Assembly (NCBI GenBank): GCA_029261155.1
Contig: JAJDBW010000078.1
Location: 1-34,015, forward strand
DNA from: Nitrospirota bacterium
GTDB taxonomy: Bacteria > Nitrospirota > Nitrospiria > SBBL01 > JAADHI01
DNA length: 34,015 bases
Direction of reading: 5' to 3'
Position numbers and translations under genes: made by a program. The notes beneath the pieces were generated by a model, which did not search any database, was not told where the DNA came from, and saw nothing but the letters and a program-made list of their open reading frames with translations. This document shows, piece after piece, positions 11,939-33,840 of the stretch; position 1 is the first letter of the stretch; each line of letters begins with the position of its first letter.

Positions 11939-12154
11939 TTATGATTTCTGGGCATCCTGGTATTCTTCATACCAGGCCATTTGTATGGCTTCGAGGATGG
12001 CCTCGTTCGAGGCCTTAGGGTCGGCTGTAAAATCGGGTAGGCTGGTGACCATTTGATGCAGGTCGGTAAAGCGGACGGTGAGGGGGTCGGTGTCGGGATA
12101 GGTCTCCTGTAGCAAAATACCGATGTCTTCAATCGTGTGCCAATCAAGTTCCAT
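11939..12154 (-). CDS. iscX: IscX, iron-sulfur assembly regulator
   Basis: A 71-residue acidic protein matching IscX (YfhJ), which binds iron and IscS and tunes cluster assembly. The start MELDWHTIEDIGILLQETYPDTDP, the middle RFTDLHQMVTSLPDF and the end ASNEAILEAIQMAWYEEYQD follow the E. coli pattern of about 66 residues. The reading frame is open upstream into fdx, but the ATG at 12154 is chosen because CTGGAGG precedes it and the homology begins there. It is the last gene of the isc operon, 16 bases after fdx. Finding IscX confirms a complete isc set of the proteobacterial kind. Confidence 0.9.
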   Translation of the reverse strand: MELDWHTIEDIGILLQETYPDTDPLTVRFTDLHQMVTSLPDFTADPKASNEAILEAIQMAWYEEYQDAQKS

Positions 12155-12170
12155 CTGGGCCTCCAGAAGC

Positions 12171-12503
12171 TTAATGTTGTTCCGCTTTGCGGAAGGGCTG
12201 CACATTTTTAGGAATCTCGATTGCGCAGTCGCCCGTGACCACGGCTTGGCAGCCTAATCGGGAAGTCAGGGTCAGCCCCTCCGCCGTGTCGAGTCGGTCT
12301 TCCTCATCTTCTTCCATTTCCGAAAGATTGTTCATTCCATCACGCACAATAACATGGCAGGTGGTACAGGCGCAGCTGCCGCCGCAATTGTGTTCGAGTT
12401 CGATGTCGTTTTCTAAGGCGATATCGAGGATGCTCTTGCCTTCTTCCACTTCAAAGGTAAGATTTTGGTTCGGATCTTCGGATAAAAATGTAATTTTCGG
12501 CAT
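12171..12503 (-). CDS. fdx: [2Fe-2S] ferredoxin of the isc operon
   Basis: A 110-residue adrenodoxin-type ferredoxin that gives electrons for cluster assembly on IscU. Ligands appear as C40, C46, C49 in HNCGGSCACTTCHV (three close cysteines) with the fourth in SRLGCQAVV near residue 84. The acidic helix MEEDEEDRLD matches the partner-binding region of Isc ferredoxins, and the length equals E. coli Fdx (111). It lies 36 bases after hscA in the conserved gene order. Confidence 0.95.
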   Translation of the reverse strand: MPKITFLSEDPNQNLTFEVEEGKSILDIALENDIELEHNCGGSCACTTCHVIVRDGMNNLSEMEEDEEDRLDTAEGLTLTSRLGCQAVVTGDCAIEIPKNVQPFRKAEQH

Positions 12504-12539: not shown

Positions 12540-14378
12540 TTATATGTTGTCGAGTCGTTTATTTTGAAGGGCTTCTTTGACCGAACGGCTCATCAATTTC
12601 TCAGCGAGCGATTGTGTTACTTCGTCGATGCGGTTGAGTTTTTCACGAATGGCGGCAGGGTTTTCACGGGAAAGGGCTTCCTTCAATTCCGCAAGGGCAG
12701 TGGTGATGGACCTCTGTTCGTTCGCGTCGACCAAGTCTTTGCCTTGCTTCAGGGCTTTTTCCGTATGTCGGATAACCGTTTCGGCTTCATTCTGAACTTC
12801 AATGCGTTGACGTTTTTCCATATCTTCTTTGGCATGTTCCATGGATGCCGAAATCATGGCCTCTGTCTCGGCGTCGCTGAGGCCGTAGGTCGGTGTGACC
12901 TCTACTGATTGCGCACGGCCGCTACGCAGGTCTTTGGCCTTCACGTTTAATATGCCGTCGGCGTCGATTAAAAACGTGACTTCGATGCGTGGCATGCCTG
13001 CGGGCATGGGGTCGATGCCCGTCAGGTTAAACTTGGCAAGACTGCGGCAATCCTCAACCAGTTCGCGTTCGCCTTGAACCACGTGAATGGACACGTTTTT
13101 TTGCCCGTCGACAAAAGTCGAAAACATTTCTTTTCCACTGGTCGGAATCGTCGAATTTCTCGGAATCAGCTTGCTGACGACGCCGCCCATGGTTTCGAGT
13201 CCGAGCGATAAAGGGGTCACGTCCAAGAGGAGCAGGTCCGAGATATCGCCGGAGAGAATGTTGGCTTGAATGGCCGCGCCCAAGGCGACCACTTCATCCG
13301 GGTCGAGTTCGCTATGTGGCGTTTTATGAAAGAGATTTTCAACGGCCTGTTTAATGAAAGGCATGCGGGTCGATCCACCCACCAGGACGACTTCCGTAAC
13401 GTCTTCCGGCTTGAGATTCGCATCGGCCAGGGCTTGAAGGCAAGGCCCCGTGCTGCGATCGACAAGGTCTTGTACTGAAGCCTCGAATTCCTTGCGGCTG
13501 ATTTCGCGTCGGTAGATTCCTTTTTTATTGGGAAGGGACAGCACAATCTCGGCTGTGGATTGTTCGGATAAGGCGCACTTGACCTGCTCCGCGACGAGGC
13601 GGGCTTCTTGTCGCAAGGCCGGGAGTTCAAAGAGATCGATTTGATATTGTTTTAGGAGGTCTTCACGAATGCGCTCTACGATGCGCTGATCGAAATCGTC
13701 GCCGCCAAGGCGGGTATCGCCGTTGGTTGAAAGGACTTCAAAAATTCCCCCTTTGATTTTTAGAATTGAAATATCGAAGGTGCCGCCGCCGAGGTCGTAC
13801 ACGGCAATGATCCCTTGTTTTGTTTTTTGAAGGCCGTAGGCCAGGGAGGCGGCTGTGGGCTCGTTCAAAATACGTATTACATCTAGGCCGGCGAGGCGTC
13901 CGGCGTCTTTTGTCGCTTGCCGCTGGCTGTCATTAAAATAGGCGGGCACGGTGATGACGGCCTGGGTCACTTCCGAGCCGAGATGCGTCTCGGCTCGTTG
14001 TTTGAGCGCACGCAGGATAATGGCTGAAATTTCGGGTGGGCTGTAGAGCCGTTGGTCTATTTGGATGCGAAGCGCTTCTTTTTCTCCACCGACCAGTTTG
14101 AAGGGCACCTGTTTAATATCCGCCTCTTCCAGATCTTCCCGTCCTTTGCCCATGAAGCGTTTGACGGAATAGATGGTCCGCCCGGTTTCAGCGATGAGCT
14201 TGCCTTTGGCCAGATCGCCGACCAGGGTATGGTCCGGATTGCCGTCTTGATCGAAGGCGACAATGGACGGGACCATGGATCGACCGCTTTCGCCTTGAAT
14301 AACACGGGGCGTTGCTCCGTCCATATAGGCGACGAGACTGTTGGTGGTTCCCAGATCGATACCGACAACTTGAGACAT
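12540..14378 (-). CDS. hscA: HscA, Hsp70-type chaperone for iron-sulfur assembly
   Basis: A 612-residue Hsp70 homologue specialised for transfer of clusters from IscU, close to E. coli HscA (616). The ATPase domain starts [15 protein letters not shown] and includes [43 protein letters not shown] and [11 protein letters not shown]. The substrate domain begins after [14 protein letters not shown] near residue 385, and the lid follows. The start codon directly abuts the hscB stop (TAGATG), a sign of translational coupling. IscU here keeps the LPPVK motif that HscA recognises. The lid lacks the DnaK acidic tail, as expected for HscA. Confidence 0.95.
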
Positions 14379-15110
14379 CTACTTATTTTTCTCCAAAGCG
14401 GATTGGATGTTTTGAATGATGCGATCTAGATAGCCTTCGTGAGAAAGGATTTTTTTCATTCGCTGTAGGTGCGCCTTTTGTTCATCGCTAAACGTGGGCT
14501 TGTTTCTACTTTTTTCGAGACTGTCCCATTCCACGGCGAGACGATTCAGCTGAACGTCTTCTTTGTCGTGATAGGCCTGCATTTTTTCAAGATCGTTTTT
14601 TAATTCTTGTCGGACAGCTTCTTGTCCAGCGTCTTCGGCGCGGATATTTTCAAGAGTCTCCAATCGCTCTTGAATCTCGAAGATGTCTTCGAAGAGCTCG
14701 GCCGGCGCTTCGGCCTCCATGGGTTTGTCGCCTTCGATCAGGCCAATGAGATAGCGCACTCTTTTTTTAGGATCCTTCAAGATCCGGTAGGCTTGGGTCA
14801 GCTGGGCCGTATTTTCAAGGCTGATGGTCTGCTCTTCCGGAGTCCGCTGCTGAAAGTAATCCGGGTGAAATTTCCGGCTAAGTGTATGGTACTGTTTTTC
14901 AAGGGCGTCTTGATCGATGGAAAGCGAGTGGTCAAAACCAAACCAAGTGAAATAATCGTTGTCTTTTAAGAAATGTTGGATTTTATCGCAGTTGGAGCAA
15001 TTATACAGATCGTCGCCGTCATGCTCGCAACTCCAGCACGGACGTGTGACGCTTTCCCCGTCAAAAAAAGGGCCCCTTGCGGGGCCTGTTTTATTTTGAA
15101 TCGCCCCCAT
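14379..15110 (-). CDS. hscB: HscB, J-domain co-chaperone with N-terminal zinc motif
   Basis: A 243-residue J-protein that loads IscU onto HscA and stimulates its ATPase. The N-terminus carries C25, C28, C38 and C41 (PCWSCEH, then CSNC), a zinc-finger-like motif as in eukaryotic HSC20 and absent from E. coli HscB. The J-domain follows (DYFTWFGFDHSLSIDQ, RKFHPDYF with HPD at residues 82-84, and LTQAYRILKDPKKRVRYLI). The C-terminal helical domain binds IscU. The ATG at 15110 is supported by a ribosome site GAGG that overlaps the iscA stop. Codons 8-16 coincide with an intrinsic-terminator-like hairpin, so expression of hscB and everything after it may be attenuated. No later in-frame start would keep the cysteines. 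Confidence 0.9.
   Translation of the reverse strand: MGAIQNKTGPARGPFFDGESVTRPCWSCEHDGDDLYNCSNCDKIQHFLKDNDYFTWFGFDHSLSIDQDALEKQYHTLSRKFHPDYFQQRTPEEQTISLENTAQLTQAYRILKDPKKRVRYLIGLIEGDKPMEAEAPAELFEDIFEIQERLETLENIRAEDAGQEAVRQELKNDLEKMQAYHDKEDVQLNRLAVEWDSLEKSRNKPTFSDEQKAHLQRMKKILSHEGYLDRIIQNIQSALEKNK
15063..15086 (-). terminator. Intrinsic terminator-like hairpin inside the hscB 5' coding region
   Basis: On the minus strand GGCCCC and GGGGCC form a six-pair all-GC stem closed by the GNRA tetraloop GCAA, followed by C and seven T residues (15086 to 15063). This is a textbook intrinsic terminator, yet it lies in codons 8-16 of hscB, 24 bases after its ATG, and reads in frame as GPARGPFF. A ribosome starting at hscB would cover it. 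It may act as a translation-coupled attenuator between iscRSUA and hscBA-fdx-iscX. On the other strand it is also followed by a T-rich stretch. Confidence 0.65.
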
Positions 15111-15117
15111 CGTCGCC

Positions 15118-15477
15118 TCAGGTCGAGAAAGATTCTCCGCAGCCGCAGCTTTGCTTGGCGTTGGGGTTGATAAATTTAAACCCGCCGCCCACGAGGGCCT
15201 TGCTGAAATCGAGCGTGATGCCTGCCAAGTAGACGGCGCTTTTTTTATCGACTAAAACGCGAAGCTCGTCGAATTCGTAGCTGTCGTCATGCGGACCGAC
15301 TTCGGTATCGAACTTGAGTTGATAGGTCATGCCGGAGCATCCGCCCCCTTCGACGCCGAGGCGCAAAGCGGCATTGCCTATATTTTTTTTGGCAATAATT
15401 TCCTTCACCGCTTCAACCGCCGCTGGTGTCAGGTGAACGGCTTGCTCGTTCGTCGTGTTGGTGTCGACTGTATTCAT
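15118..15477 (-). CDS. iscA: IscA/ErpA A-type iron-sulfur carrier
   Basis: A 119-residue HesB/IscA-type protein that carries clusters or iron to target proteins. It has the three conserved cysteines in GGGCSGMTYQLKF (near residue 47) and SCGCGESF (near 111 and 113), the fold-typical LGVEGGGCSG, and the segment DFSKALVGGGFKFINPNAKQSCGCG. The N-terminal dozen residues (NTVDTNTTNEQ) are an extension typical of ErpA-like members, so ErpA is an alternative name; operon position favours IscA. It sits 9 bases after iscU. Confidence 0.9.
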   Translation of the reverse strand: MNTVDTNTTNEQAVHLTPAAVEAVKEIIAKKNIGNAALRLGVEGGGCSGMTYQLKFDTEVGPHDDSYEFDELRVLVDKKSAVYLAGITLDFSKALVGGGFKFINPNAKQSCGCGESFST

Positions 15478-15486
15478 GATTTAACC

Positions 15487-15864
15487 CTATTCGTTTTTCT
15501 TTTTGTAATCGGCAATGGCCGCCTTGATGGCATCTTCTGCCAATACGGAACAATGAATCTTAACGGGCGGCAAATTCAGTTCGTTGACGATTTCCGTATT
15601 TTTAATCTGGAAGGCCTCATCGAGCGTCTTGCCTTTTACCCACTCCGTTGCCAGGCTGGAGCTTGCAATGGCGCTGCCGCATCCGAAGGTTTTAAAGCGA
15701 GCATCTTCAATGACGCCGCCGGAGATCTTCAGCTGAAGTTTCATGACATCGCCGCACTCAGGTGCACCAACGACGCCGGTTCCGACTTCCTTATCGTTTT
15801 TGTCAAGGCTTCCGACATTACGCGGGTTATTATAATGATCTATGACTTTATTGCTGTATGACAT
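15487..15864 (-). CDS. iscU: IscU scaffold protein
   Basis: A 125-residue scaffold on which [2Fe-2S] clusters are built from IscS-derived sulfur. It closely matches E. coli IscU: YSNKVIDHYNNPRNVGS at the start, the three ligand cysteines in GAPECGDVMKLQ, FGCGSAIASSS and KIHCSVLAEDAI, and the HscA-binding LPPVK just before the last cysteine. The ATG follows a perfect AGGAGG by 6 bases, and it is 9 bases downstream of iscS. Confidence 0.97.
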   Translation of the reverse strand: MSYSNKVIDHYNNPRNVGSLDKNDKEVGTGVVGAPECGDVMKLQLKISGGVIEDARFKTFGCGSAIASSSLATEWVKGKTLDEAFQIKNTEIVNELNLPPVKIHCSVLAEDAIKAAIADYKKKNE

Positions 15865-15873
15865 TTCAACCTC

Positions 15874-17088
15874 CTAATGTTGCGTCCATTGTACACTTTT
15901 AAGATCGATTCCTTCTTTAGCCATTTCATAAAGTGGCGACATGTCCCGAAGCCTTTTGACGGTTTCGACAACTCTTTTCCCGACATAATCGATCTCTTCG
16001 TCGGTATTAAAGCGACCGATGCCGAAGCGGAGCGAGGAGTGCGCCAAATCACTACCGATGCCCAGTGCCCGCAGTACGTAAGAGGGTTCCAGGGTTGCGG
16101 TCGTGCAAGCCGAACCGGAAGAAAGCGCGATTTCGTTCAAGCCCATCAACAAGGATTCCCCTTCCACATAGGCAAAGCTGATGTTTAAGTTTTGGGCGAG
16201 CCGTTTTTCGGGGTGCCCATTGATATAGACCTCATCCAGTTCCTTCAGGATATGTCTCTGAAGTTTGAGGCGCATTTCATTTAAACGCTTGGTTTCAGTT
16301 TCCATTTCTTTTTCGCAGATCTCGCAGGCCATGCCCAAGCCCACAATACCGGGAACGTTGAGGGTGCCGGAGCGCATGCCGCGTTCGTGTCCGCCGCCGT
16401 CCATCATCGCCGCAAGACGGACTCGGGGATTCTTTTTGCGGACATAAAGGCCGCCGATGCCCTTGGGGCCGTAAATCTTGTGCGCCGAGAAGGACATCAG
16501 GTCGATACCCATGGCTTGGACATCCACGGGGACTTTCCCGACGCCTTGGGTGGCGTCGCAATGAAAGAGGACACCTTTTTCTTTGGCGATGCGGCCGATC
16601 TCCGCGATGGGCTGAATGACGCCGATTTCGTTATTGGCAAGCATGATGGAGATTAAAATCGTCTTGTCCGTGATGGCCGCTTCGACTTCGTCCGGGTGAA
16701 TCAAGCCGTCTTTGTCTACAGGAAGATAGGTGACTTCAGCCCCTTCCTTCTCTAGGCGTTTTGCCGTGTCGAGGATGGCTTTGTGCTCCGTAACCGCGGT
16801 AATGATGTGGTTTCCTTTTTGGCGATACATCTCGGCGACGCCTTTGAGCGCCAGATTGTCCGATTCCGTGGCGCCGCTGGTAAAGATAATTTCTTTGGGG
16901 TCGCAGTTGATCAGCCGAGCAATCTGTTCGCGGGACAAAGTAACGGCCTTTTCGGCTTCCCATCCAAAAGAGTGGTTCCGGCTGGCGGCATTCCCAAATT
17001 TCTCGCTAAAATAGGGGAGCATGACTTCCAGTACCCTTGGGTCGACCGGAGTGGTTGAGTGATAATCCATGAAAATGGGCAGTTTCAA
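15874..17088 (-). CDS. iscS: IscS cysteine desulfurase
   Basis: A 404-residue PLP enzyme that takes sulfur from cysteine and hands it to IscU, the same length as E. coli IscS. Visible are the start [33 protein letters not shown], the PLP lysine in [17 protein letters not shown], the catalytic mobile cysteine in [14 protein letters not shown] (near 328), and the C-terminus [13 protein letters not shown] that docks IscU. The start codon is TTG at 17088: homology begins exactly there, and AGGGA lies upstream. The next ATG is inside the fold. It follows iscR by 29 bases. Confidence 0.96.
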
Positions 17089-17117
17089 TGTGGGTCCCTA
17101 CCTAGATGATGCGGTCA

Positions 17118-17549
17118 TTAATTGACCGTGAGTTCTTTCTCAATATTCTCATTACAAATTGTATCGATGGTGATTTGATCCAAAAATGTAATGATCTTGC
17201 CTTCTATCTTTCGAAGAGGACTCCGAATGGTACAAAGTTCCGTTTGTGAACAGGTGGTGTCTCCCTCGATACAACGAACGATCTGAATCGGTCCTTCTAT
17301 GGTTCGGATGACTTCCCCCAATGTAATTTGCCTGGGCTCCTTTGCAAGGGTATAGCCTCCTTTTGGGCCGTTTTGACTGACGATGAGACCATTTTTAGCC
17401 AGTTTCTGCAGTATTTTTGCAAGTAATTCCAAAGGAATATTATAGGTTTCGGAAATATTTCGGGTATTGGCGATAAATGAATCCTTTCGGTAAGCCATAT
17501 AATTGATCGCCATCAGGGCATAATCTGTTTTTTTCGTTAGCTTTAACAT
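17118..17549 (-). CDS. iscR: IscR, Rrf2-family [2Fe-2S] regulator of the isc operon
   Basis: A 143-residue winged-helix regulator. The N-terminus LKLTKKTDYALMAINYMA and recognition region IPLELLAKILQKLAKNGLIVSQNGPKGGYTLAK are Rrf2-type. Three cysteines spaced as C-x6-C-x5-C (CIEGDTTCSQTELC, about residues 93-106) match the cluster ligands of IscR, with one extra residue in the first gap; the fourth ligand histidine of E. coli IscR is not evident at the usual place. In the holo form IscR represses its own operon. This agrees with the IscR-like box over the predicted transcription start. The ribosome site is weak (AGGG about 14 bases upstream). First gene of the isc operon. Confidence 0.9.
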   Translation of the reverse strand: MLKLTKKTDYALMAINYMAYRKDSFIANTRNISETYNIPLELLAKILQKLAKNGLIVSQNGPKGGYTLAKEPRQITLGEVIRTIEGPIQIVRCIEGDTTCSQTELCTIRSPLRKIEGKIITFLDQITIDTICNENIEKELTVN

Positions 17550-33751: not shown

Positions 33752-33840
33752 GCCGGAGTGGCGGAATTGGTAGACGCAAGGGACTTAAAATCCCTCGCAC
33801 CGTAAGGCGCGTGCCGGTTCGATTCCGGCCTCCGGCACCA
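33752..33840 (+). tRNA. tRNA-Leu (anticodon UAA)
   Basis: The acceptor stem GCCGGAG (33752-33758) pairs with CTCCGGC (33830-33836), followed by A and an encoded CCA. The anticodon stem AGGGA/TCCCT encloses the loop CTTAAAA, with TAA at 33786-33788. A long variable arm follows, and GGTTCGATTCC is the T-arm. The long variable arm and anticodon mark a leucine tRNA for UUA/UUG. The CCA end is genomically encoded. Confidence 0.97.

Follow-up and report, generated by a model that had tools for sequence, protein, structure and literature searches.

Intrinsic terminators inside operons can set the ratio between the products encoded on either side of them. This has been shown experimentally for clostridial ABC importers (PMC9045158) and for Methanococcus (PMC10450193), where the terminator, termed ioTTS in the latter organism, follows an upstream gene that is needed in excess, and read-through supplies the rest. 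The terminators are intergenic in both cases, and Methanococcus uses a different termination machinery. In attenuators such as pyrL (PMC5021804) and the amino-acid leader types, the terminator lies in a translated stretch, where a close ribosome could suppress it, and it follows a leader peptide that lets the ribosome catch up. For the isc genes themselves, a published table separates the operons iscRSUA and hscBA-fdx-iscX in E. coli (PMC6049941), and the isc genes of Leptospirillum are co-transcribed through iscA-hscB, evidence that read-through takes place but not of its proportion (PMC9628965). The isc mRNA of E. coli is known to be under post-transcriptional control by RyhB. Our literature searches did not turn up any description of a terminator between iscA and hscB, and the view of the isc cluster as two expression units with a tuned ratio is not discussed in the literature found.

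Here, we describe a hairpin followed by a T7 tract at the boundary between iscRSUA and hscBA-fdx-iscX in a 34,015-nucleotide stretch of DNA from a Nitrospirota bacterium (contig JAJDBW010000078.1, positions 1 to 34,015; the whole stretch is referred to as the window). As in the importer and Methanococcus operons, this candidate terminator would follow genes needed in excess, but the downstream gene here has the hairpin and the T-run among its translated codons. In contrast to the attenuators, its stem lies only 24 nt past the start codon of a structural gene. The location inside hscB, found in the window and in four genomes of the genus g2, differs from the intergenic published examples, which do not amount to a strict definition, and is thus regarded as a variant of placement. 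The sequence comparisons presented below show that the hairpin is real and conserved, and their best reading is that it represents an operon-internal terminator of a known type absorbed into the downstream reading frame.

Organization of the isc operon

The isc genes of the window are read from the minus strand, with the first bases of iscR, iscS, iscU, and iscA at 17549, 17088, 15864, and 15477, and those of hscB, hscA, fdx, and iscX at 15110, 14378, 12503, and 12205. The features relevant to the boundary are as follows.

15487 to 17549, minus strand: iscR, iscS, and iscU, the upstream part of the operon (open reading frames [ORFs]; Rrf2 match for IscR)
15118 to 15477, minus strand: iscA, which ends the iscRSUA half, with its TGA at 15120-15118 (ORF; Pfam Fe-S_biosyn)
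15116 to 15120, minus strand: TGAGG, in which the iscA stop codon overlaps a GAGG that resembles a Shine-Dalgarno sequence and lies 5 nt ahead of the hscB ATG (sequence)
15108 to 15110, minus strand: hscB start codon ATG, separated by 7 nt from the iscA stop (sole in-frame ATG, GTG, or TTG ahead of the zinc motif; position kept in four g2 genomes)
14379 to 15110, minus strand: hscB, first gene of the hscBA-fdx-iscX half (ORF; DnaJ domain; alignment)
15071 to 15086, minus strand: putative terminator stem-loop GGCCCC-GCAA-GGGGCC (sequence and fold; stem conserved in the order)
15063 to 15069, minus strand: T7 tract (retained in each of the five genomes where the element is in frame)
12540 to 14378, minus strand: hscA, a downstream gene whose expression termination would be expected to lower (ORF; HSP70)
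11939 to 12503, minus strand: fdx (12503-12171) and iscX (12205-11939), the end of the operon (ORFs; Fer2 and Fe-S_assembly)

The hairpin therefore stands between co-directional genes of one operon at a functional boundary, as the gene order shows and as would be expected of a ratio-setting terminator. HscB is a co-chaperone composed of a zinc finger, with an N-terminal C4 zinc-type motif (CWSC-x9-CSNC), and a J domain; the J domain is matched in Pfam, whereas HSCB_C (PF07743) gave no match to this protein. A near-consensus sigma-70 promoter (TTGACA-N17-TATATT, 17627-17599, minus strand) lies upstream of iscR and is likely the promoter of the isc operon. A search inside iscA on the minus strand found no sigma-70-like promoter that would feed hscB separately, which is a weak negative, and none is predicted next to the hairpin. 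If hscBA-fdx-iscX has no promoter of its own, some read-through must occur.

A terminator-like hairpin in the first codons of hscB

Around 15086 to 15063, the minus strand reads ATGGGGGCGATTCAAAATAAAACA-GGCCCC-GCAA-GGGGCC-C-TTTTTTT-GACGGG. The stem (15086-15071) consists of six G-C pairs with a GCAA loop of the GNRA type, a single C at 15070 separates it from the T7 tract, and the predicted RNA 3′ end falls at about 15065-15062. The preliminary description had placed a six-pair GC stem with GCAA loop and T7 in frame, 24 nt into hscB, and the sequence agrees. The arrangement is that of an intrinsic terminator, with a G-C-rich hairpin leading directly into a T-rich tract. Its folding energy is −14.3 kcal/mol, versus −7.3 ± 2.5 kcal/mol in shuffles, its terminator score is d = 33, and within 8.5 kb it is the minus-strand terminator-like site richest in G-C pairs. 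Due to its A-rich left flank, the hairpin also resembles a terminator on the plus strand, where only unsupported mechanical ORFs are found.

The genome background was taken from 748 kb sampled as stretches, with ORFs called mechanically. Hairpins scoring at least 30 comprise 40 that are intergenic and only 7 on the sense strand of an ORF, the one in hscB among them. Two more strong terminator-like hairpins of the same genome (L138:9897-9923 and L141:1935-1963) lie 25 to 47 nt inside mechanical ORFs and may reflect misplaced starts or further cases of the kind. The motif GGCCCC-N4-GGGGCC occurs once in the 3.56-Mb genome, at the hscB hairpin, and this single copy rules it out as a general terminator of this organism. 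No Rfam family matches the hairpin site; a tRNA gene at 33752-33837, at the right end of the window, is the sole Rfam match in the window.

The A of the hscB ATG lies 24 nt before the first stem base, in the reading frame MGAIQNKTGPARGPFF, and codons 9 to 16 encode the hairpin and T-run, which are read as GPARGPFF. Between this ATG and the CWSC motif, there is no in-frame ATG, GTG, or TTG. A conventionally started HscB must therefore pass through the hairpin in translation, and HscB is most likely made in this way; with the only start codon upstream of the hairpin, the in-frame translation expected of a ribosome-controlled attenuator is present here. Four other genomes of the family (L002/L031, L003/L035, L004/L032, and L005/L033) agree with the window in the 7-nt gap and in the 24-nt distance to the same stem. 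Of the five genomes in which the element is in frame, four have TGAGG and one has TAGG. Given the start 7 nt past the stop and the Shine-Dalgarno sequence within TGAGG, translation of hscB is probably coupled to that of iscA.

Conservation of the element as RNA

The in-frame element occurs in five genomes (the window, L031, L032, L033, and L035), across which HscB shares only about 50% identity with that of the window. All five share the residues GxxRGxFF, as would be seen if the inverted repeat had arisen by chance or as a by-product of a conserved HscB peptide, GPxRGPFF. This is contradicted by the codons. Residues G9, R12, G13, F15, and F16 are encoded by GGC, AGG, GGC, TTT, and TTT in every one of the five genomes, whereas invariant columns of iscS, iscU, iscA, hscB, and hscA outside the element keep a single codon in only 2 of 73 cases for Gly, 1 of 33 for Arg, and 6 of 31 for Phe (product of about 8.5e-7, with codons treated as independent). 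Synonymous codons are thus frozen, while residues change and pairing stays: the substitutions P/S, A/V/E, and P/H amount to nothing but a C-G pair becoming U-G, an exchange of one GNRA loop for another (GCAA, GTGA, and GAGA), or a change in the 1-nt spacer. The peptide is, moreover, absent from the HscB of genome G005 and of all outgroups. We consider a peptide or chance origin very improbable, and the codon pattern indicates that the element is selected as RNA and not as peptide.

Pairing is intact in 66 of 66 stem cells across 11 sequences of the order, with one one-sided change only, so that the support consists of conservation and codon evidence and not of covariation. The preliminary description had expected compensatory changes in the stem and a retained T-run; T7 is indeed retained in five of five genomes, but compensatory changes are absent from the stem of this order and appear only in an unrelated stem of Nitrospira (see below). 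It had also held that relatives keeping the protein but not the stem and T-run would speak against a function. Such a case exists in G005 (L007), where the element is absent and the segment is missing from an otherwise aligned HscB, and partly in the congener G001 (L006), where the stem is weak (about −6 kcal/mol, two G-U pairs) and the T-run is kept; the other four genomes show the reverse, with the RNA kept and amino acids changed. Weakened in G001 and lost in G005, the element is favored but dispensable.

Two further features were seen in G001 (L034:2950-3075). One is another weak hairpin, CGTTCTCGACTTGAGAACG-TTTT, in overlap with the stop codon of iscA, and the other is a direct repeat, AAATCCGGCCTT, at the 5′ end of hscB, adjoining the eroded terminator.

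Intergenic state in the outgroups

In eight outgroup sequences (L037, L038, L039, L040, L010, L012, L013, and L090), GGCCCC-N4-GGGGCC stands in the iscA-hscB gap, and hscB begins after the stem. These genomes belong to the same order, Candidatus Troglogloeales/Manganitrophaceae, and their T-runs are interrupted (GTTCTATTTT). Since the same stem is intergenic in the outgroups, the terminator is presumably older and the hscB start would have moved upstream over it; the simplest reading places this shift in the ancestor of genera g1 and g2. Because the outgroup element lies outside any frame, any function that it may have is independent of translation. The states before and after the overrun are both visible in living relatives, which would make this locus a clear natural example of a reading frame that has extended over a regulatory RNA element, with the RNA and not the peptide under selection.

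The iscA-hscB junction across the class

Hairpins with T-tracts were scored over 84 isc loci of Nitrospiria, with the expectation obtained by dinucleotide shuffling of the scored stretches themselves. At the iscA-hscB junction, 36 of 82 operons score above zero, against 0.8 expected; the operons are related, so these calls are not 36 independent gains, and over half of the operons have no terminator call there. No call was made in about 390 other junctions, which include iscR-iscS, iscS-iscU, iscU-iscA, hscB-hscA, and hscA-fdx. The pattern recurred in 40 further regions, half of which belong to other classes of the phylum: candidates were seen after iscA, whereas iscS-iscU and iscU-iscA had none. 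The claim that a conserved terminator-type element marks the boundary between the scaffold and chaperone halves is borne out by this scoring, in which the junction is the sole terminator hot spot in the isc operons of the class.

The stems themselves differ in sequence between Troglogloeales, Nitrospira, L161/L163, and E. coli. Many Nitrospira carry an unrelated stem, CGGGCATGG..CCATGCCCG-TTTTT, at the same junction, likewise a hairpin with a T-run, but located before the hscB start and not in coding frame. Two of its pairs have changed on both sides, with compensation, and 162 of 162 cells are paired. Its covariation score was reached by 0 of 500 shuffles, a comparison that relatedness can inflate, and the scores of slid versions fall far below it. 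A distant relative (G101) has a hairpin with T6 right where the hscB match begins (L168:2464-2489, hscB on the plus strand); no iscA was found next to hscB in that region.

A stable stem at a cistron boundary may also shield the 3′ end of iscRSUA from exonucleases or mark a cleavage site, so that differential stability, and not termination, would separate the two halves; differential decay is known to reshape E. coli operons (PMC5927463). A pure protector needs no T-run, yet T7 is kept at synonymous sites along with the stem in the family studied here, and T-runs also follow many of the unrelated Nitrospira stems. Processing or protection is accordingly a doubtful account of the element.

E. 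coli K-12 (NC_000913.3) also has a terminator-like candidate after iscA, on the minus strand at L112:4522-4548 (CCCCACCG..GTGGGG-TTTGTTTT; CCCCACCGTGGTCGCCTGCGCGTGGGG-TTTGTTTT), 16 nt after the gene and with a score of 25. Unlike the hairpin of the window, it is intergenic and unrelated in sequence, and hscB starts downstream of it. A stronger terminator-like hairpin follows iscX, and no discussion of the iscA-hscB hairpin was found in the literature searched. Taken together, the junction data give grounds, at the level of sequence, for regarding the isc cluster of Nitrospirota, and possibly that of E. coli, as two expression units whose ratio is tuned.

Partial termination and the role of the ribosome

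We propose that the hairpin probably acts as a partial intrinsic terminator where iscRSUA gives way to hscBA within the operon, and that in this family it was absorbed into hscB. Polymerases leaving iscA would meet the 6-bp G-C hairpin, its GNRA loop, and a U7 tract, the stem lying 31 nt after the iscA stop. A fraction would stop there and yield an iscRSUA mRNA ending near 15063, while the others would read on into hscBA-fdx-iscX, so that the scaffold mRNA would exceed the chaperone mRNA. The start of hscB, now 7 nt past the iscA stop, would have shifted upstream across the older intergenic terminator, and on read-through mRNA the ribosomes would melt the hairpin and translate GPARGPFF. The one-base spacer before the T-run and the U-G pair in g2 would fit a moderate efficiency of termination.

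The preliminary description had instead proposed a translation-dependent switch, in which a ribosome on the first hscB codons decides termination and the ratio of scaffold to chaperone is tuned by hscB initiation or by iscA-hscB coupling. Ribosomes closely behind RNA polymerase do suppress intrinsic terminators in ORFs (PMC5021804). The hairpin is in frame, the start is probably coupled, and the 7-nt and 24-nt spacings are fixed in five genomes, all of which would suit such a switch. The geometry is less favorable. An initiating ribosome reaches to about nt +15, so that one seated on the hscB ATG stops short of the stem, which begins at +25, and a ribosome finishing iscA halts about 10 nt before that ATG. 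Only about 47 nt are transcribed between the ATG and the release point, at general rates of about 40 to 50 nt per second, and a ribosome would have about 1 s to reinitiate and advance about four codons. The same element, moreover, sits outside the ORF in the outgroups, the congener has weakened the hairpin yet kept the upstream start, and one relative has lost the hairpin. The geometry thus favors a default partial terminator over a ribosome-operated device. Translation may have a partial effect, but a clean on/off switch is not favored, and we consider the switch unlikely.

No regulatory codons were seen at the start of hscB. Codons 2 to 8 vary among the relatives without a shared motif, and the switch model needs no antiterminator. 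A pairing of codons 2 and 3 (GGGGGC) with the 5′ arm of the stem was seen by eye in this genome only; it is absent from the g2 sequences and was rejected as an antiterminator.

A broader version, which we hold to be rather improbable, combines the start shift over a conserved terminator with termination gated by iscA-to-hscB reinitiation, by which the cell would set its iron-sulfur chaperone level. Under partial termination, the terminated transcripts would end in the hscB frame, with a start codon and about 15 to 16 codons but no stop, and in that broader version these cut transcripts would feed ribosome rescue.
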